A DNA stretch of 35,555 nucleotides from the IMG/VR virus record IMGVR_UViG_3300042453_000714, positions 1 to 35,555 of that record; one strand, 5' to 3'. The DNA is from a virus. Below, piece after piece: positions 478-28,067 of this stretch (within the stretch, counting starts at the first letter, position 1; every line of letters begins with the position of its first letter). The notes below the pieces were generated by a model. It was not told where the DNA came from, searched no databases, and saw nothing but the letters and a program-made list of their open reading frames with translations. Both the position numbers and the translations under genes were made by a program.

Positions 478-558
478 ATGAATATGGATGATTTTAAAGA
501 TTTTCTTTCTCTAGCTGGTGTGATGGTCGTTATCTATATTTCGGTGGTTATTCTATAA
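478..558 (+). CDS. Tiny membrane peptide (26 aa)
   Basis: The frame MNMDDFKDF is followed by a hydrophobic stretch of about 16 residues (LAGVMVVIYISVVIL), so this is a predicted single-span membrane peptide. The promoter upstream would start the RNA near 484, which favours the second ATG (484) and a leaderless message. Its TAA shares one base with the ATG of pseT (TAATG), so translation is probably coupled. It could instead be only a leader whose translation feeds pseT. Function is unknown. Confidence 0.5.
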   Translation: MNMDDFKDFLSLAGVMVVIYISVVIL

Positions 559-1514
559 TGAAGGCTTATATCACAATCGGTCTTCCGGCTTCCGGAAAGA
601 CGACTTGGGCGAAGGAATTTGTAGAAAAGAATTCTACCGATTCTAATAACATCGTGCGAGTTAACAACGATGATATCCGTGCGGCGATTTATGCTGACTC
701 TGGTAATTACGATTGGTCTCCTAAGGTTGAGAGAGAAGTTCGTGTGATTCGTGAAGATCTGATTAAAGAGAGAGCGAGTGTTCGTGCTGATATTGTGATC
801 GACAATACTCATCTGAATCCGAAAACTCTAGAACAGATTAAATCGTTTTGTAAGTCTGAAGGATATGTTATTGAAATTGTAGACTTCAGACACGTTTCTC
901 TCGAAGAATGCATTCGACGTGATTCCTTGCGTGAAGGTCCTTCGAAGGTTGGTGAGAAAGTGATTCGTGATATGTATACTAAATTCATGAGTGATTCATT
1001 AGATCGAAATGTTCCTGAGTGGAATCCAAATTCTCTGCCAGATTGCATTATCGTAGATATCGACGGGACTCTTGCTAAGATGAAGGATCGTGGTCCTTAT
1101 GAAGAGCATAAAGTCTACCAAGACGATGTTCGCAAGCATGTTCTATTCACCATCGCATCGATGATGACTGCGAATCCAGAACTAAAGGTTTTCGTATTCT
1201 CGGGAAGATCAGAGGCTTGTTTAGGCGAAACAATTATATGGATTAACGAAAAGTGTGATCTTGTAGTAGATAATTATCTGAATTGGAATTTTAAAAATGA
1301 TTGTGTTCCAGATTATTCTGTAGAATTACATATGCGTAAAGTAGGAGATAAGCGTCGTGATTCCCTGGTTAAGATGGATTTGTATAATGAGTATGTGAAA
1401 GACAAGTACAATACAATTGTTGTATTTGATGATCGTCCGCAGGTGATTCGTGAATGTTGGAAGGCTCTGAATCTTCCAGTTTTTCAGTGTGGTTTAATTG
1501 ATGTTGAATTCTAA
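558..1514 (+). CDS. pseT: Polynucleotide 5'-kinase / 3'-phosphatase
   Basis: This 318-residue protein matches T4 Pnk (about 300 residues) in domain order. The N-terminal kinase has the P-loop GLPASGKT (residues 8-15) and VIDNTHL. The C-terminal HAD-type phosphatase has IVDIDGTLA (near residue 168), FSGRSE and FDDRP. The enzyme removes 3' phosphate and phosphorylates the 5' end of cleaved RNA, which prepares broken tRNAs for sealing by RNA ligase 1. The partner RnlA is encoded at 15635-16753 on the other strand. Start is the ATG that overlaps the upstream peptide's stop. Known role of the pair in T4: reversing host anticodon-nuclease damage. Confidence 0.95.
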   Translation: MKAYITIGLPASGKTTWAKEFVEKNSTDSNNIVRVNNDDIRAAIYADSGNYDWSPKVEREVRVIREDLIKERASVRADIVIDNTHLNPKTLEQIKSFCKSEGYVIEIVDFRHVSLEECIRRDSLREGPSKVGEKVIRDMYTKFMSDSLDRNVPEWNPNSLPDCIIVDIDGTLAKMKDRGPYEEHKVYQDDVRKHVLFTIASMMTANPELKVFVFSGRSEACLGETIIWINEKCDLVVDNYLNWNFKNDCVPDYSVELHMRKVGDKRRDSLVKMDLYNEYVKDKYNTIVVFDDRPQVIRECWKALNLPVFQCGLIDVEF

Positions 1515-4547: not shown

Positions 4548-5534
4548 ATGATTGTTAATCGTGATGAATGTTTGGATTTTGATGATGTTATGATCGAACC
4601 TAGGATTACTGGGATCTCTTCAAGATCCCAAGTTAATCTAGAATATGAGTATATTAACGAATCAAAAGGAATATCTTGGAAAGGAGTTCCTATTATTGCA
4701 TCTAATATGGATAAGATTGGTACAATCAAGGTTGCCAATGTATTATCTGGATACAAGATGTTGACTTTTTTACATAAATTCCACACTGTTAGAGAATTGA
4801 GAGGAAGAGATTATGATCCCGAATTTATTGGCATTTCTGCTGGGATTTCTGCTTTTGAATTTGAAAATGTTAAAGAAATATTAACCTATAATCCTAGAAT
4901 CAAATTTATCTGTTTAGATGTTGCTAATGGATATATGTTATCTTTTCAGAAAGAAGTTCGTAGATATTCTAAAGAATTTCCAGATAAGTTTATTGTAGCT
5001 GGAAATGTTGTAGAAAATTCTGGGTCTAATGCACTATTCCATTCTGGCGCAGATCTTATTAAGTGTGGGATTGGTTCTGGGGCTGTTTGTACCACAAGAG
5101 CGAAAACTGGTGTTGGTTTACCTCAATTTTCTTGTATTGATAAATCTATTGGAGTTTGGCCGAATAACTTAGATATTGTTTCTGATGGTGGATGTAAAAC
5201 ACCCGGAGATATTGCTAAAGCTTTCGGTGCTGGTGCTAAATTTGTTATGATCGGTGGAATGCTTGCTGGGCATGATGAAACTGGTACAGAAATCTATGGA
5301 ATGTCTTCCACAGAAGCGATGGACACATACTCTCTTGGATCTAAGGATTATAGAACTTCAGAAGGAAAGAGAGTCGTTCTCGAATCAAAGGGACCATTAG
5401 AAAACACAATTAAAGATATTCTTGGTGGCCTGAGATCTTCTCTTTCATATACAAATTCTGCATACATGAAAGATTTTATCGGAAAGCAGACATTTAATAT
5501 TGTTCGCAGACAGTTGAATAATTTATTCGAATAA
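4548..5534 (+). CDS. guaC: GMP reductase (IMPDH/GMPR family)
   Basis: The sequence reads as the TIM-barrel GMP reductase: DFDDVMIEP near the start, IIASNMD, CLDVANGY, then KCGIGSGAVCTTR with the catalytic Cys near residue 181, TGVGLPQ, SDGGCKTPGDI and FVMIGGMLAG. Its 328 residues match GMPR and it has no CBS domains. The Asp-Val-Ala-Asn-Gly-Tyr signature and overall length favour GMPR over IMP dehydrogenase. Reaction: GMP + NADPH to IMP + NH3. It sits 2 bases after dut, and a PRPP synthetase ends at the right edge of the window. The phage therefore appears to redirect purines, for example recycling host RNA-derived GMP. Confidence 0.88.
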   Translation: MIVNRDECLDFDDVMIEPRITGISSRSQVNLEYEYINESKGISWKGVPIIASNMDKIGTIKVANVLSGYKMLTFLHKFHTVRELRGRDYDPEFIGISAGISAFEFENVKEILTYNPRIKFICLDVANGYMLSFQKEVRRYSKEFPDKFIVAGNVVENSGSNALFHSGADLIKCGIGSGAVCTTRAKTGVGLPQFSCIDKSIGVWPNNLDIVSDGGCKTPGDIAKAFGAGAKFVMIGGMLAGHDETGTEIYGMSSTEAMDTYSLGSKDYRTSEGKRVVLESKGPLENTIKDILGGLRSSLSYTNSAYMKDFIGKQTFNIVRRQLNNLFE

Positions 5535-5535
5535 T

Positions 5536-5931
5536 ATGAAGAACGTTTTTCGTGAATTGAAATCTTGGGCAGAAGAACAAGATATAGAAGTTCAGATTGA
5601 TTCTACATATTACGAATATGCTAAAACTAAACAAGAAGATAGAATCGTAAATGGATTAGCTGGTTCCGATGGTTATATCACTCTATATGTAGATGGAAAT
5701 CGTATAGAAGAATCCTGGGATTATCTAACTTCTATGTTAATACACGAAATAGGTCATGTCCTTCTGTTTCAAGAAGGAAAGGGATGGCATACTGAGAAAC
5801 AAGCATGGATTTGTGGCATCCAGACAGTTCCGAAGAGGTTCCATCCAAAAACTCTAGAACAACATTGTATCGATTGTCTTAAAACGTACAATTACAAGAG
5901 ATTCGGATGGATTAAGAAACTCCTATCTTGA
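5536..5931 (+). CDS. Zinc-metallopeptidase-like protein (HEIGH)
   Basis: A gluzincin-like helix carries H70-E-I-G-H74. This is followed about 12 residues later by HTEKQAW, whose Glu87 could be the third zinc ligand. At 131 residues the protein is a minimal domain. A second protein at 18380-18829 shares the same layout (HEMGH then HTEMDAW), so these are paralogues. Some families of this shape are true peptidases and others are inactive zinc domains, so activity is unproven. Substrate unknown. The gene directly follows guaC by 1 base. Confidence 0.7.
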   Translation: MKNVFRELKSWAEEQDIEVQIDSTYYEYAKTKQEDRIVNGLAGSDGYITLYVDGNRIEESWDYLTSMLIHEIGHVLLFQEGKGWHTEKQAWICGIQTVPKRFHPKTLEQHCIDCLKTYNYKRFGWIKKLLS

Positions 5932-6895: not shown

Positions 6896-6958
6896 AAATA
6901 GTATACGGAACGCCTAATGGGTTCCATAAAATTAAACTCGCTTAATAGGAGAACAAAC

Positions 6959-7393
6959 ATGACTCTGAGAAGAATCAATTTAGACACACCCACATTTCCT
7001 TCCCTCTATTTTAATAATGATGTAACTTCCTTCTGGACACAAGAAGCTAAGTTAGCTGGATCTTTTCCTCCATATAATCTAACAAAGAATTCAGATTCAA
7101 CACAATTTAATCTGAAATTAGCTCTTGCTGGATTCGGTCCAGAAGATGTTGATGTCACTGTTGAAGATAATCAATTGATTATCAAAGGGAAGGCAGTATC
7201 ACAACCTCTTGATGATGGTAGTGTATATGTTCATAAGGGAATTGCCGAGAGATCGTTCACCAGAACTTTCACTTTGGGTGATTATGTCGAAATTAAAGAA
7301 GTGACTTATAAGAATGGTATTCTAGATGTCTATATGGAACTAGTCTTACCGGAACATAAGAAACCAAAGAAGTTCGACATCGTGACTAAGTAA
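6959..7393 (+). CDS. Small heat-shock protein, Hsp20 family
   Basis: The alpha-crystallin domain runs from about residue 38: FNLKLALAGFGPEDVDVTVEDNQ, LIIKGKA, then IAERSFTRTFTLGDYVEI, and the closing YKNGILDVYMEL. The last two segments are the standard beta7 and beta8/9 of Hsp20. I use ATG 6959, with AGGAG at 6946-6950, giving 144 residues; an upstream in-frame ATG at 6917 lacks a binding site. ATP-independent holdase chaperone; phage copies are common in marine T4-like phages and are thought to aid capsid or photosystem protein folding. It is flanked by two identical terminators. Confidence 0.9.
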   Translation: MTLRRINLDTPTFPSLYFNNDVTSFWTQEAKLAGSFPPYNLTKNSDSTQFNLKLALAGFGPEDVDVTVEDNQLIIKGKAVSQPLDDGSVYVHKGIAERSFTRTFTLGDYVEIKEVTYKNGILDVYMELVLPEHKKPKKFDIVTK

Positions 7394-8519: not shown

Positions 8520-9137
8520 ATGACAAAAGACTTAATACAACCTATTCTAGAAGCATTTGATACATGTGGTATCGAATGCGTTTTTTTAAAAAAAGCAATC
8601 CTAGCAAATATTCAGAAAGAGTGTGGTGGTATTCCTTCTGCAGAAAATCTGAATTATTCTAAAACTTCTAATACAAGAATTAGATCTATTTTTGGATCAA
8701 GAGTAGCCAATTTTTCAGAAGAAGAATTAAATACTGTGAAGAAAACAGCAGAATCTTTTGCTGAAATTGTTTATGGAAACAAGACTACTTTGGGTAGATC
8801 TATGGGTAATCTAGAGCCAGGAGATGGTTGGAAATATCGTGGGAGAGGATATATCCAATTAACAGGAAAGAATAATTATATCACATATGGTAATGCAACT
8901 GGATTTGATTTAATTGATAATCCTGATATTCTGGTTAATGATAGAAAAGCTTCAGCTGTAGTTTCTGTTGAATTTGTGAAGCTTGGATTAGCTGGTAAGT
9001 TGAAATTCTCTTCACAAGAAGAAGCTAATCGTGCAGTAACTCAAGTGATCGGAGGAAGAGGTCTAAACCTAAATGCAGGATACGGCTCCGAATTATTGGC
9101 GAAAGTTAACAAGTTCGCTTCTAATATTGTTCTATGA
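8520..9137 (+). CDS. GH19 chitinase-like endolysin
   Basis: A glycoside hydrolase family 19 (chitinase-like lysozyme) domain fills the 205 residues. Near residue 30 the helix ANIQKECGG carries the candidate catalytic Glu. LNYS then leads to GDGWKYRGRGYIQLTGKNNY, the family's core signature, and VTQVIGGRGLN near the end. Such phage proteins cut peptidoglycan at the end of infection. There is no signal peptide, so it needs a holin. It overlaps the following LpxH-like gene by 4 bases. A second GH19 domain sits in the capsid-targeted protein at 26862-28067. Confidence 0.85.
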   Translation: MTKDLIQPILEAFDTCGIECVFLKKAILANIQKECGGIPSAENLNYSKTSNTRIRSIFGSRVANFSEEELNTVKKTAESFAEIVYGNKTTLGRSMGNLEPGDGWKYRGRGYIQLTGKNNYITYGNATGFDLIDNPDILVNDRKASAVVSVEFVKLGLAGKLKFSSQEEANRAVTQVIGGRGLNLNAGYGSELLAKVNKFASNIVL

Positions 9138-15634: not shown

Positions 15635-16753
15635 TTAACTCCTGAGATTAATAGTCACATCCAATACTTTTTCTGGCTGAAGCGCAGCCAACCACTCAGT
15701 CGCATTCTTGATCTTTCCAGATCTCCGCATATAGAAATAAGAATGAACCTTTGGATTGAACTCTCTCTGAACTAACAGAGCAAAGTCTTTCTGAGTCCAA
15801 TTCAACATCCCATCCTCTACAATATAAGAGTCCCAAATATCATCTAAATAAGCAACAATCCAGTCTACACACTTTTTAATCTCATCGAAACGAATCTTAA
15901 GATCAGGGAAGTAAGCAAAGACCTCAGAGTCTTCACCAGTGCGGATTAACTCGACAATTCGCTTGTCGTTGATTGCGTCCTTAAGATGGTGTATTAGAAC
16001 ATACTTCTCGGACTTAACTTTGATTCGATTGAAATTCCTATCAACAAGAACGAATCCTTCCTGTTTGGATGGATCTAATTGTTTAGAAGATGTTAAAATC
16101 TCATCGATAGTTTTCATCCCGAAAGATCTAACAACAGAAAACAGATCTGAATACAATTGAGGCCAGAACTCGATTCCGGTCTGGTTATCACGAATACCGA
16201 TAAGAGTCAAGGTCCCTTCATTATCGATCTGTGAAGTCACAACACGATTATACTTGGAAGTCAACTCAAACATATAAGTGTTTCGACGATCAAGATCCAG
16301 GGTACTCAGATTCTGACCATAGAATGTCTCCCAGAATAACTGGGCAAAAGTGAATGATTCTTTCCCAACCGACCCACCAGCATCTGGCGATCCTTTTGTC
16401 GCAACATTCCACTTTCCACTATAATAGTAGACGATCATCAAAGATCCATCGATCTTCTCTTGTGCTACAAACGAAGACCAATCGAAGATATCTTCGTCGA
16501 TGTTTTCACCCCAATTAAAGAATCGATCGAATGGACGAGCAACGACTTGCCAACCATTAGCACGATCTAGGATAATTCCACGAGATTCCCGGACCATCGG
16601 ATGATCTTTAATCTTTGATGCCTCGATCTGATCATAAGTGAATTGATAGAGATCTGGATAATCACGATGCTGCTGCGAAAAGATCCCATACTCTGCACCT
16701 AAAGCAGTTCGATCTCCGTTATTCTCGATTAAGTATTTTTGTAGCTTCAACAT
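15635..16753 (-). CDS. rnlA: RNA ligase 1 (RnlA)
   Basis: The 372-residue protein matches T4 RNA ligase 1 (374). Motif I is EKIDGSL with the adenylated Lys at residue 100 (T4: Lys99), followed by motif Ia/III region YMFELTSKYNRVV, motif IV QEGFVLVD and motif V RIKVKSEKYV. An HPMVRESRGIILD segment precedes the active site as in T4. The C-terminal helical domain for tRNA is present. It seals RNA ends with ATP after PseT (558-1514) has repaired them, most likely to undo anticodon-nuclease cleavage. The two partners are 14 kb apart and on opposite strands. Confidence 0.95.
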   Translation of the reverse strand: MLKLQKYLIENNGDRTALGAEYGIFSQQHRDYPDLYQFTYDQIEASKIKDHPMVRESRGIILDRANGWQVVARPFDRFFNWGENIDEDIFDWSSFVAQEKIDGSLMIVYYYSGKWNVATKGSPDAGGSVGKESFTFAQLFWETFYGQNLSTLDLDRRNTYMFELTSKYNRVVTSQIDNEGTLTLIGIRDNQTGIEFWPQLYSDLFSVVRSFGMKTIDEILTSSKQLDPSKQEGFVLVDRNFNRIKVKSEKYVLIHHLKDAINDKRIVELIRTGEDSEVFAYFPDLKIRFDEIKKCVDWIVAYLDDIWDSYIVEDGMLNWTQKDFALLVQREFNPKVHSYFYMRRSGKIKNATEWLAALQPEKVLDVTINLRS

Positions 16754-17618: not shown

Positions 17619-18380
17619 ATGGAAAAGCTTACTGCTGTTGAATATCGCCAAATGGCTCGTGGTCACGCTCAGGAGCGTAACGATTCGTTCGATCGGTGTG
17701 ATACCGATGGGTTCCTTTCGCAATGGGCTTCTGGTCTCCACTCTTCCCTTTACCAAACTCTGGCCAACTTAGCCGAAGCTGGATGGGTTTCTGAGTTTCC
17801 TGGTCTTTTCAATGCCAAGACTGGCGAGCGTGTTCCTGCAAAGATTATCTATGTCAAAGATCGATTCTCTTACAATGGTGCTCTGAAGGCACTATGGGCG
17901 ATTGTAGATCCGAAGACCGACAAATTCACTGGTGTTTTCCTTCCGGTTGGTGAGAAATCCCGAAAGCAGAAGCAGCTTGGTTTCATTCAGAAGACTGAGA
18001 TTGCTCCGGCTTATGCTAAGATCGACGGTCGTGGATATGGACTCTCTGGTTCTGCTTGGGTTTCGACTTATCGCACGGATGGTGGATATCCGAAAGAGAT
18101 GCGACAGGTGATGACACGTGATGAAGTCGTCGAGGAAATTATCCAGAACAAGCCGGGAAAGGTTGAGTTGATTACGACGACCAACAAAGTTTCAGGTTCT
18201 GGAAAAGAATTCGTTCGGATGCATTTCAAGAATGGATCTTGTGATCTGACACTTGATGTCTATGGACCGAAATTCATTCTCGGAAAGTGTCAGATTGATC
18301 CCTATGGTCGTCCGGTATTCAATTCTGTGGACGATGCCATCGAATATTTGAATCGAATTAATCCTGAGGCGAATCGGTAA
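17619..18380 (+). CDS. Hypothetical protein (253 aa)
   Basis: I start at ATG 17619 because the promoter's expected first base is exactly there; an in-frame ATG at 17595 lies within the promoter. The N-terminal third is helical (LTAVEYRQMARGHAQERNDSF). The centre is a mixed region with a fold-like RFSYNGALKALWAIVDPKTDKFTGVFLPVG. The C-terminal part has a short IDPYGRPVFNSVDDAIEYL segment. Codons are GC-richer than in the replication genes, like its neighbours. I do not recognise a family. Confidence 0.65.
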   Translation: MEKLTAVEYRQMARGHAQERNDSFDRCDTDGFLSQWASGLHSSLYQTLANLAEAGWVSEFPGLFNAKTGERVPAKIIYVKDRFSYNGALKALWAIVDPKTDKFTGVFLPVGEKSRKQKQLGFIQKTEIAPAYAKIDGRGYGLSGSAWVSTYRTDGGYPKEMRQVMTRDEVVEEIIQNKPGKVELITTTNKVSGSGKEFVRMHFKNGSCDLTLDVYGPKFILGKCQIDPYGRPVFNSVDDAIEYLNRINPEANR

Positions 18381-18829
18381 TGACTACAAACAAAACAGAG
18401 ATCTTCGAAGATCTGGTTGATTTTATCAAAAAAGAATTAGATACTGAAATATCAATTCTTCCTCTGGTAAACGAAGAAGAATACACCGGATTTCCTGTAG
18501 ACGCTGTGGTTTATCTGAATGAAGATCTAAAACATCACATTGACCTTTATGTGAATGACATCTCTAATAATATAGAGACTGTGATTGCTTGTCTAATCCA
18601 TGAAATGGGTCATATTCTCTGTTACGAACAAGTAGGGAATGACCACACTGAGATGGATGCCTGGGATGCTTCTCTCATGAGTTTACCTGAATATCTAATT
18701 CCAAAAAATTTTGAAGAGATCAAAGAATTTGCTCTATCAGAATACGATAAGGTAGAATTAATGAATTATACTTCTCCTTATATAGACATGAATACTCTAA
18801 ACCTGTTGAAAACTTTTTTTGGATGTTAA
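18380..18829 (+). CDS. Zinc-metallopeptidase-like protein (HEMGH), paralogue
   Basis: H74-E-M-G-H78 on a predicted helix, followed by HTEMDAW with a candidate third ligand at Glu91. This is the same spacing as in the HEIGH protein at 5536-5931, so the two are diverged copies of one family. It is 149 residues long, with strands before the helix (AVVYLNEDLK, IDLYVND) as in metzincin/gluzincin mini-domains. Its start overlaps the previous stop by one base (TAATG). Substrate unknown. Confidence 0.7.
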   Translation: MTTNKTEIFEDLVDFIKKELDTEISILPLVNEEEYTGFPVDAVVYLNEDLKHHIDLYVNDISNNIETVIACLIHEMGHILCYEQVGNDHTEMDAWDASLMSLPEYLIPKNFEEIKEFALSEYDKVELMNYTSPYIDMNTLNLLKTFFGC

Positions 18830-20263: not shown

Positions 20264-20464
20264 ATGATGGATAATTCTCAATTTAAAATTCAATATTATA
20301 GAACTCCAAGACAGGGTGTTAATGAATGCCCTGTCGGTGTTCGAGTAACTGACTCACTAACTGGTCTGGTTGTAGATTGTGATCGATACGATCGTCTTAT
20401 GGAAAATAGAATGACTGCGATGAAAGAACTGATTTCTGTATTGCGAGAATCAAATCAACAATAA
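20264..20464 (+). CDS. Release-factor-like mini protein lacking GGQ (66 aa)
   Basis: Residues 12-60 line up with the catalytic domain of class I release factors and ArfB-type rescue factors. YRTPRQGVN takes the place of YRTSGAGGQHVN, VRVTDSLTGLVVDC that of VRITHIPTGIVVEC, and YDRLMENRMTAMKEL that of ERSQHKNRAQAMKVL. The Gly-Gly-Gln that triggers peptidyl-tRNA hydrolysis is missing: the loop is three residues shorter and reads PRQ. It is therefore probably a non-hydrolytic ribosome or tRNA binder. It is the last gene before the structured RNA and the tmRNA, which strengthens a translation link. Two tandem ATGs start it; no strong binding site. Confidence 0.6.
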   Translation: MMDNSQFKIQYYRTPRQGVNECPVGVRVTDSLTGLVVDCDRYDRLMENRMTAMKELISVLRESNQQ

Positions 20465-20467
20465 ATA
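20461..20467 (+). promoter_or_regulatory. Late-type box before the structured RNA
   Basis: ATAAATA overlaps the preceding stop codon. A start 6 bases downstream (about 20473) would put the first long helix (20476) at the RNA's 5' end, the same arrangement as at the tmRNA. Confidence 0.35.
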
Positions 20468-20472
20468 GTAAC

Positions 20473-20720
20473 AGTTATCTCTATGCACGATAGACTACCT
20501 TATTGGGTAGGAACATAGCACCGTCGAAAGCCCAGAAAATAGTAGCTTGCGCAGGCGAAATTTAATAACAGGCAGCATATGAGCGGACGCAAGGACTTCG
20601 AAAATCCAAGTGCAGGTGAAATCCGACATAGAGATATTGGATATATGTTGTTTCTGGCCAGTATGTGGGATAAGGTCCACAGTAAACATATCCTAAAGAT
20701 CGCTAGCCACGATTTTGGAC
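20473..20720 (+). ncRNA. Structured RNA of unknown class
   Basis: No credible protein gene lies here. TATCTCTATG (20476-20485) pairs perfectly with CATAGAGATA (20627-20636), closing a 140-base domain. That domain contains CTACC/GGTAG and CTTGCG (20546-20551) with CGCAAG (20588-20593), plus several GAAA and TTCG turns. A second arm follows: GGATAT..GTT with AACATATCC, capped by GTGGG/TCCAC. The 3' part (ATCG-CTAGCCA-CGATTTT) could be a weak terminator. I looked for RNase P, SRP, 6S, group I and T-box signatures and found none convincing. It may be separate from the tmRNA or the 5' part of one long transcript. Confidence 0.55.
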
Positions 20721-20734
20721 AACTATATATTCAA

Positions 20735-20742
20735 TATAAATA
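20735..20742 (+). promoter_or_regulatory. T4-type late promoter of the tmRNA
   Basis: Exact TATAAATA. A late start about 6 bases after the box (about 20748) falls inside the first strand of the 11-bp helix that opens the tmRNA precursor. Confidence 0.55.
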
Positions 20743-20985
20743 AGATTGTACACAGCCAGCGGGAGTGCTTGGGATCAAATATGGTGATCAGAGGAGTATC
20801 AATACTCGACCGATAGTGATATCGGGGCTGAGGCATTCTACCATAAATAGAATGAAGGCTGTTGGAACAACAATATGGCTTCGTAAAGTTGTTTTTACTG
20901 TGTACAATACTAAATATCGATATTGAGTGATGATCTAGACTGAAAGCTTCTTGGACGTGGGAGGCAGAGCCCACCACCTCCACCA

Positions 20986-21084
20986 AAAGCGCATTGTGAG
21001 GAGCTAGTTGCATGGCAAATTCGAACAAAGTGCAACCCAAGATATAATAGTGTACATAAAAATCTTGAGCAGTGCGTTTTTGAT
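20986..21084 (+). other. tmRNA intervening segment (expected to be excised)
   Basis: The 99 bases between encoded CCA (20985) and the 5' acceptor strand (21085). AAAGCGCA (20986-20993) pairs with TGCGTTTT (21073-21080). Inside, GTTGCA/TGCAAC and CAAGAT/ATCTTG form two more hairpins. Removal would leave separate acceptor and coding RNAs held by base pairing. Confidence 0.75.
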
Positions 21085-21168
21085 GGGGGTGAAACAGATT
21101 CGACAGGATGAACTAGGAACAGGGAACTCAGTCGGAAGATGACTCCCGTAACAGCATAAACTATAAAC

Positions 21169-21201
21169 GGCAATGCAAAAGCAATGTCCATGTCTGCCTA
21201 G
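21169..21201 (+). other. tmRNA proteolysis-tag reading frame
   Basis: After the typical ATAAAC context, the frame GGC AAT GCA AAA GCA ATG TCC ATG TCT GCC TAG encodes GNAKAMSMSA, so the full tag would be Ala plus these ten residues. The stop lies in a 9-bp hairpin with a GAAA loop (21192-21213), as in tmRNA helix 5. The resume codon is Gly rather than the usual Ala, and the end is M-S-A, not A-A. Confidence 0.65.
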
Positions 21202-21256
21202 AAATAGGTAGACTGGGTTTTTCGAGATTTCTCCTGGAAACAGAATAAAATCTCAT

Positions 21257-21280
21257 AACCTCACGCAAGTGAGGTTTTTT
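21257..21280 (+). terminator. Rho-independent terminator of the tmRNA
   Basis: AACCTCAC-GCAA-GTGAGGTT followed by TTTT: an 8-bp perfect stem on a GNRA loop. It closes the RNA region and precedes an ATAAATA box (21292-21298) ahead of the ClpA-like gene. Confidence 0.9.
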
Positions 21281-21318
21281 CACGCATATCAATAAATAGA
21301 TCAAGGAGGATCATACTG

Positions 21319-22338
21319 ATGATCTTAAACTCTAAAAGCCTTTCCGGAAAAGCGAAAGAACTAGAAGATAAATTAAATGCAGTTGTTATCGGCCAAGAAG
21401 AAGCTATTAAAGAATTAGCCATAACAACACAGAAATTCTTCAATGGTCTATCAGATCCAAAAAGACCTATCACATCACTTTTCTTTGCAGGAAAGACTGG
21501 TTGTGGAAAAACGAAGGCCGCAGAAGAGTTAGCTAAATTTTTCGGTGTTGAGAAATTCTTGAAGGTTAATTGTGGAGAATTTCAACAATCACATGAGATC
21601 TCTAAGTTAATTGGTTCTCCTCCAGGATATATCGGTCACTCAGAAACAAAAGCTTTCTTCAACAAGAAGGATGTAGAAGAAACTGTTCCGAACATAATTT
21701 TATTTGATGAAGTGGAGAAGGCAACTGATTCTCTATTCCATCTGCTATTGTCTATTCTAGATAAGGGTGAGATTAAGTTAGGTAACAATGATGTGGTGAA
21801 TTTCAGAAATTGTTTCATTATTTTTACTTCGAATATTGGTGTTGAAGAAGTTGCAAAAAGATCGAAATCAATTGGTTTCGTAGAAGACAAGATAAATGAT
21901 ACCGACGAGATCGATCTATTGAATAAATCCATGAAGGCTAAGTTTCGCCCAGAATTCATGAATAGAATTGAATCTGTTATAAAGTTCAACACACTCAACA
22001 CAGATAACATGAAGAAAATTCTGGAATTAGAATTATCTCAAATTCAATATAGAATTATGTCTTCTAAACTGAATAAGAAGAAAGTCTTTTTCGTGATGTC
22101 TGATGATACTAAGACTAAACTGATTGAAGAAGGTTTTTCAGAAGAATATGGGGCGAGAAATTTAAAGAGAGTTATTTCTAAAAAGATAGAAATCCCTCTC
22201 TCATGTGTGCTTGCGGACGATAGATTAGAATCTGGTGATATTATCGAAATTAAGACTGCAGTTGGCGAAGAAGATTTGATCTTCGAAAAGGCGAAGATCA
22301 AAAGAGCGAAAACTAAGACACTTACACTAGATATCTAA
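21319..22338 (+). CDS. Single-ring ClpA-like AAA+ unfoldase with IGF loop
   Basis: The 339 residues are equivalent to only the second ATPase module of ClpA/ClpB. Walker A GKTGCGKT (58-65), pore loop GSPPGYIG (99-106), Walker B ILFDEVEK (127-134), sensor FTSN (169-172), arginine finger FRPEFMNRIE (Arg216), sensor 2 EEYGARNLKR (276-284). Between sensor 1 and the finger it has RSKSIGFVED, with IGF at 185-187. E. coli ClpA has RKSIGLIHQD at this place, the loop that docks into ClpP, while ClpB lacks it. The N domain and first ring are missing. It probably threads proteins into host ClpP. GGAGG (21305-21309) sets the start. It follows the tmRNA terminator and ends convergently with gene 46, the two stop codons overlapping. 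Confidence 0.88.
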   Translation: MILNSKSLSGKAKELEDKLNAVVIGQEEAIKELAITTQKFFNGLSDPKRPITSLFFAGKTGCGKTKAAEELAKFFGVEKFLKVNCGEFQQSHEISKLIGSPPGYIGHSETKAFFNKKDVEETVPNIILFDEVEKATDSLFHLLLSILDKGEIKLGNNDVVNFRNCFIIFTSNIGVEEVAKRSKSIGFVEDKINDTDEIDLLNKSMKAKFRPEFMNRIESVIKFNTLNTDNMKKILELELSQIQYRIMSSKLNKKKVFFVMSDDTKTKLIEEGFSEEYGARNLKRVISKKIEIPLSCVLADDRLESGDIIEIKTAVGEEDLIFEKAKIKRAKTKTLTLDI

Positions 22339-24056: not shown

Positions 24057-25111
24057 AATTTAGAGGCCTCAATATATAGATCGGATAACAATAATTCTAA
24101 TTCTGTGATTTTGTTTTCATCAGGAATTAGATCTGAATAATCTGGAATGGAATTTTTCAACAGAGTAAGTGTATCTTCATTTAGATCTGCAACTTCTTCA
24201 GACGATTCAATCTCTAGATATTGTTCTGCATAGATAATAGATTGTGGATTGGCTTCTGTTAATCTATCACAATATCTATCGAAGAATAGAGGATTAGTTT
24301 TCGATTTAATAAAGACCTTTACGAATGTCTTCTCTAGAGACTTATACTTATTATCAGTATAGACAACATCTTGAATCTTCTTTGCTGAAGAATCATCATA
24401 GAATAATTTGTGAAATAACTTATAAGGATTTTCGATGAAAGTTAATTCAGTTGTTACTGTATCTAAGATATGGAATCCTTTAACATCATCAACATCATTG
24501 AACATTAAATCCCAAGGACATCCAAGATAATAGATATTCGAAGAATCGTTTTTCGTATGAAAATGACCAGATAGAACTAGATCATAATTATAGAAGATAT
24601 CTGAAGATAAACCATGATCACAAATAGCTCCTTTGAACATAGTATATCCTTTGACTTCAAGATGACCAAGAAGGATATTTGCTTTCGATTTAGTGATCTT
24701 CTCTAAGCATTCTTTCTTCTTGTCATCTGTAATCCAAGGAACATAGATTAGATTATCTTCTTCATATACATCTTCGAAAATTCGAATATTGTCATAATCA
24801 CCTAATAGGAGATTTGGTGAATTAATCTCATTAGTATTCTTGAAATATGTATCGTGATTACCAACGATAATATCCATAGTGGCAATATCTGCGATCCTAT
24901 CAAAGAAAGAAGATCTCGCCCATGTAAGTGTATTAAAATTAACAAACTTTCTTTTATCGAATACATCACCTAAATGGATAATCTTATCAATTCCTCTCTG
25001 TTCTAGTGTAGGAAAGAACACATTATCCAAAAACTTATCGAAGTATTCGTAAAAAAGAGGAGAATCGTTTTTGATACCGAAATGTGTATCGGTTATAAGA
25101 GCAACTTTCAT
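24053..25111 (-). CDS. 47: Recombination endonuclease subunit gp47 (SbcD/Mre11-like)
   Basis: Mre11-type nuclease of 352 residues (T4 gp47: 339). Phosphoesterase motifs in order: ITDTHFGIKND (7-17), IIHLGDVFDKR, DIIVGNHDTYF, LLGHLEVKG and LSGHFHTKN. The C-terminal third is the capping and gp46-binding region. Acts with gp46 on double-strand ends. Start overlaps the gene 55 stop by one base. Confidence 0.96.
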   Translation of the reverse strand: MKVALITDTHFGIKNDSPLFYEYFDKFLDNVFFPTLEQRGIDKIIHLGDVFDKRKFVNFNTLTWARSSFFDRIADIATMDIIVGNHDTYFKNTNEINSPNLLLGDYDNIRIFEDVYEEDNLIYVPWITDDKKKECLEKITKSKANILLGHLEVKGYTMFKGAICDHGLSSDIFYNYDLVLSGHFHTKNDSSNIYYLGCPWDLMFNDVDDVKGFHILDTVTTELTFIENPYKLFHKLFYDDSSAKKIQDVVYTDNKYKSLEKTFVKVFIKSKTNPLFFDRYCDRLTEANPQSIIYAEQYLEIESSEEVADLNEDTLTLLKNSIPDYSDLIPDENKITELELLLSDLYIEASKL

Positions 25112-25653
25112 TATTCCATAAACTCCTCTAATTTAGTGAGGATCACATCAATATCTTTAGTCTTCTTCTTCCTCAATAACTTATCTTCATATTTTTCGAT
25201 AATATGATGAGTATTCTCATTTAAGACAGATTTGTTCAGATTAACGAATCTCTTAGATTCCATCTTATGATCTGTGAATAGCGGGGAAGCTTCAAGAGAC
25301 TTAAACTTAACATAGGTTTCAGTAGACTCGTGATCGATCCTTCGCAAGAAGGCATACCAAATAATCTTAGAAAAGTATCCGAATGGATTCTTCGAAGAAT
25401 CCTCATTAAAGTTATGAAGATAGAGAAGACAATTCTGGATTGCATCACCTATCATATCTTCTTTAAATGTGTAACCTGAAAAATTCGGTCTCTTTGCAAT
25501 ATTCTCTGTAATCTTGAGAAGACACTCACCAATATACTCTGGTACTCTTGGTTTCGGCAAACCAGAAAATTCTGATGCTTTGATTGACTGTTTGTAGTCA
25601 ATGAGTGCTTGTAAGAACTCTGCATTATTTACATACTCTCTGGGCAAATTCAC
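25111..25653 (-). CDS. 55: Late-transcription sigma factor gp55
   Basis: Hallmarks of T4 gp55: YVNNAEFLQALIDYK near the start, GECLLKITENIAKRPNFSGYTFKEDMIGDAIQNCLLYLHNF (region 2-like) and NPFGYFSKIIWYAFLRRI. At 180 residues it is close to T4 (185). It directs host RNA polymerase to TATAAATA late promoters, of which this window has several. The start is not an ATG: GTG at 25653, or TTG at 25647, which is better spaced from the GAGG. A promoter lies just upstream. The order 55-47-46 is similar to T4. Confidence 0.93.
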   Translation of the reverse strand: MNLPREYVNNAEFLQALIDYKQSIKASEFSGLPKPRVPEYIGECLLKITENIAKRPNFSGYTFKEDMIGDAIQNCLLYLHNFNEDSSKNPFGYFSKIIWYAFLRRIDHESTETYVKFKSLEASPLFTDHKMESKRFVNLNKSVLNENTHHIIEKYEDKLLRKKKTKDIDVILTKLEEFME

Positions 25654-26358: not shown

Positions 26359-26865
26359 TCAAAAATACTTATATCTATCTTTAAGATTTTTGTAACTCTT
26401 GTCCTTAACTAGTTTGTCGAATTGACCACTCTCACCATCAAGATAAAAACCACTAGGATCTAAGATAATTCCATTAACTTCCACCCAACTATGTGGGATT
26501 AATTTGAAGTCTTCAACTAATCCAGATTTTTCTGCATATGTTTTGATATCTAATTTAGATTTTGGATTCAATCTCATCCCTTTCATTTTAGAGATATCTG
26601 ATTGTGTTAGAGCATCATAATTGTATTCTGGTTCGTCGATTTGGAACCAACCTTGTTTCATAGCACCATTTTTATCTATGAATCCAGTTTTCACTATTTC
26701 GTTATTGATTCGTTTACTATATAAGAATTCTGATAGATCTTTGGCAGCAATACCACAACCACCTCTTTCGAAATAAACATCTAAACGATCTTCATGCGTA
26801 TTCCAAAATTCTTTGAGTAGATCTAAATTTCTATCTTCATTAATATACTGTTTGAAAGTTTTCAT
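26359..26865 (-). CDS. Capsid-targeted papain/transglutaminase-like protein (168 aa)
   Basis: MKTFKQYINE is a capsid-targeting sequence with predicted cleavage after I-N-E (residue 10). The body has FERGGCGIAAKDLSEFL with Cys37 at the start of a helix, then PHSWVEVNGIILDPSGF with His125 and Asp136. A Cys on a helix N terminus followed by His on a strand and Asp on the next is the triad of transglutaminase/papain-fold enzymes. It may be a protease, amidase or cross-linking effector delivered with the DNA. It overlaps the upstream gene by 4 bases. The fold call is from motifs only. Confidence 0.65.
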   Translation of the reverse strand: MKTFKQYINEDRNLDLLKEFWNTHEDRLDVYFERGGCGIAAKDLSEFLYSKRINNEIVKTGFIDKNGAMKQGWFQIDEPEYNYDALTQSDISKMKGMRLNPKSKLDIKTYAEKSGLVEDFKLIPHSWVEVNGIILDPSGFYLDGESGQFDKLVKDKSYKNLKDRYKYF

Positions 26866-28067
26866 CTGACTTTCCTTAACAATCTCTTTCTTCTATCTAG
26901 ATGCTTTTCTTTTCCTGAACCTGCAATTTGCTTTGTTACTCTTTCTACAGCATCTTTACTGGTAAAGGATTTAACTCTTGGAGCTACTCTCCATTTCCAA
27001 TATGCAATTGCTGTTGCAGCAGCAATACCAGGATATCTTGAAACCATACTTGGATTAGAGACAAGATCCAGATTCAATATTTTACCAATCTTATCATAAT
27101 TATACTTACCTGTTAATTGTAAGAATCCTCTACCACGAAATTTCGCACCATCACCAGGAGATACATTTCCTAAAATCTTTCCTTTTCTTGTATCGAATCC
27201 ATACTTCTTCTCGAATTTAGATACAGAACCTATTTCTTCTAGTTTAGAATATCCTAGAGTTTCATGTTGGGCTTGTGATAAGAAATGATTTAACTCAGCA
27301 CCTTTCAATCCAGAAGATATTGCCATCTTTTTCAATAATGCGAGTCTTTCTTCTGGTGTATCTGCTTTAACAGTCATTAAAGTTGATCTTGGATTAGAGA
27401 TAATCTTCTTAGTTTTGGTCGTTTTTTCAACAGGTATTGGAGACAATTTCTCTGCTTCTAAGTCATTTGCAGAGAACAATCCAGCAGCCAACACAATATT
27501 TCTCAACCAATCTTGTAAAGATTCGTCGATGAAATCTTCTGAGATATTTCTTCTTAATTCAAATCTTACGAATTCTTCTCCATCTACTCTGTTTAATGAA
27601 AGATTCAATTCTTTAGATAATCTATTAGATAATCGATCGTACAACTTAACTCTACTCGGTTCAGACTTAGAAGCTTCGAATACATAATATTCGATATCAT
27701 AAATCTTCTCGGCATTAGACGAAAAGTTTTTTGTTATTTGGATAACAGTTGCAAATATTCTTGCGACTTCTGGATCTTTAACATTTGGATCGATTTTAAT
27801 ATCAGTCTTCAGAGATCTCCAGTTAACCTTAAGAGATACTAGATCTTCTATACCAGAATTAATAAGTTTCGAGAAAGAGATAAGCGCAAAATATTTTTCG
27901 TTCTCTGATCCTTCTGTAATTTCTTCTAAATCGATGGCTACTTTATATGGAACTTTAGTCTTTTCTGTGATGAATAATGCTCTGAATTTGTTGTATCCAG
28001 AAGAAACAACTTCATGATCGAATGGATTATCTAGTATTTCTGTAATATAAGTTTTGAAAGATTTCAT
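26862..28067 (-). CDS. Capsid-targeted protein with GH19 lysozyme domain (401 aa)
   Basis: MKSFKTYITE is a capsid-targeting sequence (cut after I-T-E, residue 10). Residues 15-200 form an unrecognised alpha/beta domain. After a linker (about 215-240), residues 245-401 are a GH19 chitinase-like domain: NHFLSQAQHETLGYSKLEE with the candidate catalytic Glu, GDGAKFRGRGFLQLTGKYNYDKIG and VTKQIAGSG. It shares this domain with the endolysin at 8520-9137. A cell-wall hydrolase inside the head is unusual; it could aid entry, or be a virion component acting during DNA delivery. Confidence 0.78.
   Translation of the reverse strand: MKSFKTYITEILDNPFDHEVVSSGYNKFRALFITEKTKVPYKVAIDLEEITEGSENEKYFALISFSKLINSGIEDLVSLKVNWRSLKTDIKIDPNVKDPEVARIFATVIQITKNFSSNAEKIYDIEYYVFEASKSEPSRVKLYDRLSNRLSKELNLSLNRVDGEEFVRFELRRNISEDFIDESLQDWLRNIVLAAGLFSANDLEAEKLSPIPVEKTTKTKKIISNPRSTLMTVKADTPEERLALLKKMAISSGLKGAELNHFLSQAQHETLGYSKLEEIGSVSKFEKKYGFDTRKGKILGNVSPGDGAKFRGRGFLQLTGKYNYDKIGKILNLDLVSNPSMVSRYPGIAAATAIAYWKWRVAPRVKSFTSKDAVERVTKQIAGSGKEKHLDRRKRLLRKVR

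Follow-up and report, generated by a model that had tools for sequence, protein, structure and literature searches.

A circularly permuted tmRNA beside a ClpA/ClpC-type unfoldase gene in a clade of T4-like phages

Phages are known carriers of trans-translation genes. A published survey counted tmRNAs in 402 of 18,146 phages, 53 of them two-piece, and 50 of those 53 were from aquatic phages (PMC9004378), and genes for release factors, SmpB and tmRNA are known from huge phages (PMC7162821). Aquatic T4-like phages with permuted tmRNAs have already been described (PMC9004378). Like the phages described here, Methylophilales phage Melnitz and Pelagibacter phage HTVC008M are aquatic T4-like phages with a two-piece tmRNA that has an alanine-type acceptor and a tag frame (PMC9004378), but their tags end in ALAA and we found neither a ClpP nor an AAA_2 ATPase match in either of them; in Melnitz, moreover, gp33 and gp59 are the neighbours of the tmRNA. 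In the openly licensed literature we found no report joining a tmRNA with a Clp protease in a phage. What is new here is a ClpP in relatives of the phage under study, conserved late promoters of tmRNA and ATPase, and tags that depart from ALAA.

The window, by which we mean the whole stretch of DNA analysed, comes from IMG/VR, where it is a virus record of 35.6 kb, and belongs to a T4-like phage with Pfam matches to DNA polymerase, UvsX, a PseT-like kinase-phosphatase and T4 RNA ligase 1. A previous reading made from the sequence alone had placed PseT and RnlA in the same genome, and both were confirmed (Table 1). Downstream of the tmRNA-ATPase locus are gp46 and gp47, and the closest named relatives of gp46 are cyanophages (about 45%, tblastn); a genome scan with the ATPase, made in search of the host, gave distant bacterial matches only. 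An IMG/VR scan with the ATPase added seven contigs to the window, and these eight form a clade of three lineages at 74-100% identity, apparently freshwater phages judging from the sample identifiers.

Several other genes of the window were noted in passing. An HSP20 small heat-shock protein (6917-7393, E 2e-15) is a further protein quality-control gene of this phage. Two small proteins (5536-5931 and 18380-18829) have similar HExGH motifs, LIHEIGHVL and LIHEMGHIL, and may be paralogous zinc peptidases; a weak DUF2268 match was seen for the second only. The proteins at 26862-28067 and 8520-9137 have a chitinase/lysozyme-like stretch in common (GH19-type, from translations read by eye), fused in one of them to a longer N-terminal part.

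Table 1. Positions of the features discussed, numbered along the window
Feature	Position	Strand	Basis or remarks
PseT-like kinase-phosphatase	558-1514		Pfam
T4 RNA ligase 1	15635-16753		Pfam
66-aa release-factor domain-3 mini protein without GGQ	20264-20464	+	profiles, predicted fold
Late promoter element AATAAATA before the non-coding RNA region	20460-20467	+	T4-type; also in L002
Possible RNA domain, 10-bp perfect inverted repeat (20476-20485 / 20627-20636)	20476-20636	+	weak; interior comparable to shuffles
Structured RNA element, 12-bp basal helix and inner extension	20634-20737	+	z -3.24; compensatory pairs
tmRNA late promoter TATAAATA	20735-20742	+	directly upstream of tmRNA in L002, L003, L004
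Structured insertion, 11-bp terminal inverted repeats (20745-20755 / 20898-20908), TAAATA flanks	20743-20912	+	z -5.45
tmRNA 3' half (T arm, acceptor 3' strand, CCA)	20922-20985	+	RF04321 alignment; six-contig alignment
tmRNA precursor intervening segment	20986-21084	+	six-contig alignment
tmRNA 5' half (D-loop, mRNA-like domain, downstream helices)	21085-21250	+	3' end approximate
Tag reading frame GNAKAMSMSA, UAG stop	21169-21201	+	frame fixed by alignment with L004, L008
Intrinsic terminator CCTCAC-GCAA-GTGAGG-TTTTTT after tmRNA	21259-21280	+	sequence
ATPase late promoter AATAAATA	21291-21298	+	25-28 bp before ATPase start, all lineages
339-aa single-ring ClpA/ClpC-D2-type AAA+ unfoldase	21319-22338	+	profiles, motifs, solved-structure matches
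gp55-like late sigma factor	25111-25653	-	phrog_234, E 2.1e-53

The permuted tmRNA and its tag

The permuted tmRNA that had been proposed from the sequence is genuine, and both its place and its strand were given correctly. The circularly permuted model RF04321 matches positions 20922-21201 with 83 bits against a curated cut-off of 47 (E 1e-14), and all eight clade contigs score between 83 and 100 bits, although ARAGORN did not detect the molecule in the window. The acceptor stem of the window, GGGGGUG/CACCUCC-A-CCA, has the G3-U70 alanine determinant and the CCA end. When it is compared with the stems of L004 (GGGUGAG/CUCAUCC) and L008 (GGGCCUG/CAGGUCC), other pairs of the stem covary, whereas G3-U70 is the same in all three lineages. 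The intervening segment of the precursor varies in length, being some 75 nt shorter in L002. A scan with a DNA pattern of the tmRNA brought up five more contigs, which were rejected as chance matches with neither tmRNA nor ATPase.

The start of the tag frame lies at a constant distance from a conserved ACUAUAA and in the same register in the three lineages. The window, L002 and L003 encode GNAKAMSMSA, L004 encodes VNTNVMAMSAAA, and L006 and L008 encode ANTNVLVMSAAA, so that the tags of the clade end in SAAA or SA. The tags of the four other phages compared all end in ALAA (Melnitz, ANDNYVPVDYALAA; HTVC008M, ANFNEYALAA; BUCT-ZZ01, ANDETFSMALAA; Phosso, ANDNVSTKVALAA). LAA is recognised by ClpX, and the non-ALAA endings of the clade are suggestive with regard to how ClpX or the phage unfoldase may recognise them. 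The earlier suggestion that the locus could replace host trans-translation calls for SmpB, and a search of the clade's eight contigs for that protein gave none; host SmpB must therefore serve, if the tmRNA works at all.

The unfoldase, its linkage to the tmRNA and the ClpP of the clade

The ATPase had been described as single-ring and ClpA-like with a loop of the ClpP-docking type, and this description stands: there is one ring, of the D2 kind, and an IGF loop at residues I185, G186 and F187 (21871-21879). Profiles match it as AAA_2 (E 6.5e-36) and ClpB_D2-small (E 9.8e-16), its motifs include GKTGCGKT (Walker A), LFDE (Walker B), a GYIG pore loop and a GAR sensor 2, and the solved structures closest to it are the D2 rings of ClpC, ClpB and ClpA. 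The N-domain and the second ring (D1) of true ClpA and ClpC are absent. With only D2 in its 339 amino acids, the protein should therefore work like ClpA, but it is not ClpA. An AlphaFold model built from five close sequences reached a pLDDT of 40 and was discarded.

A permuted tmRNA lies upstream of the ATPase gene in all seven relatives, and across the eight contigs the two genes are direct or near neighbours; in L004 and L005 a gene of 370 aa stands between them. Outside the clade, the ATPase was not found in the gp46 flanks of about 76 other T4-like contigs. Among other gp46-bearing T4-like records, none of about 40 searched had a tmRNA, and the ATPase was absent from about 27, barring marginal P-loop matches. 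The pair is thus a trait of this clade, and since the association rests on one clade it may reflect a single historical event.

Three long relatives encode a ClpP with a Ser-His-Asp triad and the CLP_protease fold, about 20-25 kb from the ATPase. In the window that distance runs past the contig end, and no ClpP is seen in it. The closest ClpPs in named phages are those of Phosso (47%) and BUCT-ZZ01 (50%), both of which carry permuted tmRNAs scoring over the cut-off. A role for the clade's ClpP as the prohead protease was considered and rejected because the same contigs carry a separate T4-type prohead protease of the gp21 type (Peptidase_S77), so that head maturation does not depend on ClpP. 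Next to ClpP in two lineages is a lipoprotein-like Band_7/SPFH gene (PF01145, E 2.3e-22; L017 2245-3036; L019 2245-3036).

Promoter-like elements suggest when these genes are expressed. The element directly upstream of the tmRNA is AATAAATA in L006 and L008, and the gp55-like late sigma factor would use the predicted late promoters of the locus. The total number of ATAAATA elements in the window is not above chance; it is their placement that is unusual, with 11 of 14 intergenic where 14% of the sequence is intergenic, and with 9 intergenic against 2.8 expected in a stricter count that models intergenic composition. They often stand 17-47 bp before genes, as expected of T4-type late promoters. 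We rejected a single operon, given the terminator between tmRNA and ATPase and their separate late promoters; with that arrangement the two are probably co-expressed late as separate units. In this the clade's tmRNA, with its late promoter-like element, differs from that of Melnitz, for which an early promoter upstream and a glutamine riboswitch are reported (PMC9004378).

The release-factor-like protein and additional RNAs

Upstream of the tmRNA, the sequence-only reading had seen a release-factor-like mini protein without GGQ, and profiles and predicted fold both identify it as domain 3. It matches phrog_20323 ('RF-1 domain peptide chain release factor') at E 3.8e-8 and the RF-1 domain PF00472 at E 6.5e-6, where its 26.5 bits fall short of the 35-bit cut-off; the predicted fold has a pLDDT of 88, and the closest solved structure is domain 3 of RF2/RF1. 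GGQ is absent from the protein of the window, L006 and L008 and from that of phage 133. The mini protein is therefore not a release factor or ArfB. A tblastn search against named phages returned nothing at E 0.01, but comparison of folds did find similar proteins. In L006 an HNH homing endonuclease gene (4988-5647, phrog_655) sits between the release-factor-like gene and the tmRNA; it is absent in L008.

An unknown structured RNA had also been read here, which holds for part of the region from 20465 to 20912. The segment 20630-20736 folds more stably than all 200 shuffles (z -3.24), the insertion at 20743-20912 is far more stable than its shuffles (z -5.5), and 20465-20614 alone folds no better than shuffles (z +1.05). 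Across the window, L002 and L003 the basal helix of the first element shows two compensatory pairs, no broken pair and 100% of cells paired; three sequences are few, and 48 of 500 shuffles match this covariation. A possible inner pseudoknot, GGAUA/UAUCC, was read by eye. The 170-nt insertion separates the tmRNA of the window from its late promoter and is absent from L002 and L003. Its terminal inverted repeats are ATTGTACACAG/CTGTGTACAAT. It may be MITE-like or represent a novel small RNA, and the loci examined contained no further copy. For the whole region Rfam gave no match at E up to 10, and for both RNA elements IMG/VR pattern scans returned the same clade only, or nothing, and blastn against phages nothing useful.

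These upstream elements vary within the clade. The release-factor-like protein is present in five of eight contigs (the window, L002 and L006-L008) and absent from L003, L004 and L005, and the additional RNAs are confined, in differing parts, to the window and its two closest relatives. The earlier proposal took the co-location of four elements (this protein, the structured RNA, the tmRNA and the ATPase) to suggest one pathway, and named scattered, independently varying elements in related genomes as its refutation. For the four together this is what was seen: they do not always co-occur, their parts separate across phages, and an obligate four-part module is not supported. The tmRNA and the ATPase, linked throughout the clade, and the clade's ClpP are not scattered in that way within the clade.

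Possible roles of the locus and comparison with known systems

We suggest that tmRNA, unfoldase and ClpP plausibly constitute a late trans-translation and proteolysis set that uses host SmpB. Late in infection, the tmRNA precursor would be cut into two pieces, and host AlaRS, recognising G3-U70, would charge it with alanine. Host SmpB and the tmRNA would then be loaded onto ribosomes stalled on broken mRNAs, and the phage tag would be added to the rescued proteins. The unfoldase would dock by its IGF loop on phage ClpP, or on host ClpP, and together they would break down unfinished proteins, whether tagged or not, so that ribosomes and amino acids become available again for making virions. The release-factor-like protein and the additional RNAs would be accessory neighbours outside the core. 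The genes, their motifs, their linkage and the promoter-like elements before them lead us to give such a joint pathway of rescue and degradation something close to an even chance. On this proposal the phage tag would feed the phage protease. It is unlikely, in our estimation, that the circuit is also private, with the SA/SAAA tag read poorly by host ClpXP and well by the phage unfoldase and ClpP; if it were, the phage would both free ribosomes late in infection and control which proteins are destroyed.

It is also quite possible, though rather short of an even chance, that these genes are neighbours with no joint pathway. The tmRNA would then be an ordinary one acting through host SmpB and ClpXP, the ATPase and ClpP would be an independent protease concerned with host takeover or virion-protein quality control, and their adjacency would be historical. 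That tmRNA and Clp genes lie apart in other phages accords with this, as do the genes that adjoin the Melnitz tmRNA instead, the separate promoters and terminator in the locus and the restriction of the adjacency to one clade. However, the linkage has persisted in eight of eight contigs despite 26% protein divergence and an inserted gene, the two closest named relatives of the ClpP also come from phages with permuted tmRNAs, and the C-terminus of the tag has diverged in the clade.

The same divergence from the ALAA of Melnitz, HTVC008M, BUCT-ZZ01 and Phosso would fit a tmRNA that acts as a decoy or override, whether because its MSA/SAAA tag escapes host ClpXP and tagged proteins are spared or because the RNA competes with host tmRNA, and the tag-less tmRNA of phage DS6A has been shown to inhibit host tmRNA (PMC11915505). 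We think this improbable, given that the clade keeps a complete tag frame with an SA(AA) pattern and encodes an unfoldase and a ClpP of its own, and that small C-terminal residues could still be recognised. We consider it very unlikely that the ATPase is a ClpB-like chaperone or disaggregase unrelated to proteolysis: ClpB is among its best profile matches (TIGR03346, E 8e-70), but IGF is invariant between variable flanks in ATPase copies that are 74% identical, ClpP occurs in the same phages and ClpB is not known to have an IGF-type loop.

A clade that links a tmRNA, a Clp unfoldase, ClpP and a non-ALAA tag makes the purpose of a phage tmRNA testable with purified parts. The locus raises the question of whether phage trans-translation only frees ribosomes or also directs proteolysis of the phage's own, and it would be an obvious starting point for an orthogonal tag-protease pair.

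Among described phages, Atu_ph07 and SE_PL have a Clp ATPase and ClpP without a tmRNA. The Sinorhizobium jumbo phage Phosso (PV764938) resembles the clade in having a permuted tmRNA, a Clp ATPase and a related ClpP (the 47% match above), but its ClpA is full-length with two rings, it has a second ClpP, its tag ends in VALAA, and by record coordinates its tmRNA lies more than 200 kb from the Clp genes. The halves of the Phosso tmRNA are about 400 nt apart (L137 1501-2103), an unusually long intervening segment. Synechococcus phage BUCT-ZZ01 (ON615601) likewise has a permuted tmRNA, along with the closest named ClpP, but it shows no AAA_2 match and about 41 kb separate its tmRNA and ClpP. Acinetobacter phages 133 and Henu6 encode mini proteins with an RF-1 domain (phrog_20323) that, like that of the window, have release-factor domain 3 and measure 65-76 aa; in phage 133, however, the gene stands beside a tRNA cluster, and no tmRNA, ClpP or AAA_2 ATPase match is present. 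The clade differs from the bacterial system in that no phage SmpB was found, the unfoldase is D2 without N-domain or D1, and the tag is non-ALAA, but the logic that we propose for it, of rescue, tagging and Clp proteolysis, is the same as that of bacterial tmRNA-SmpB with ClpXP/ClpAP.
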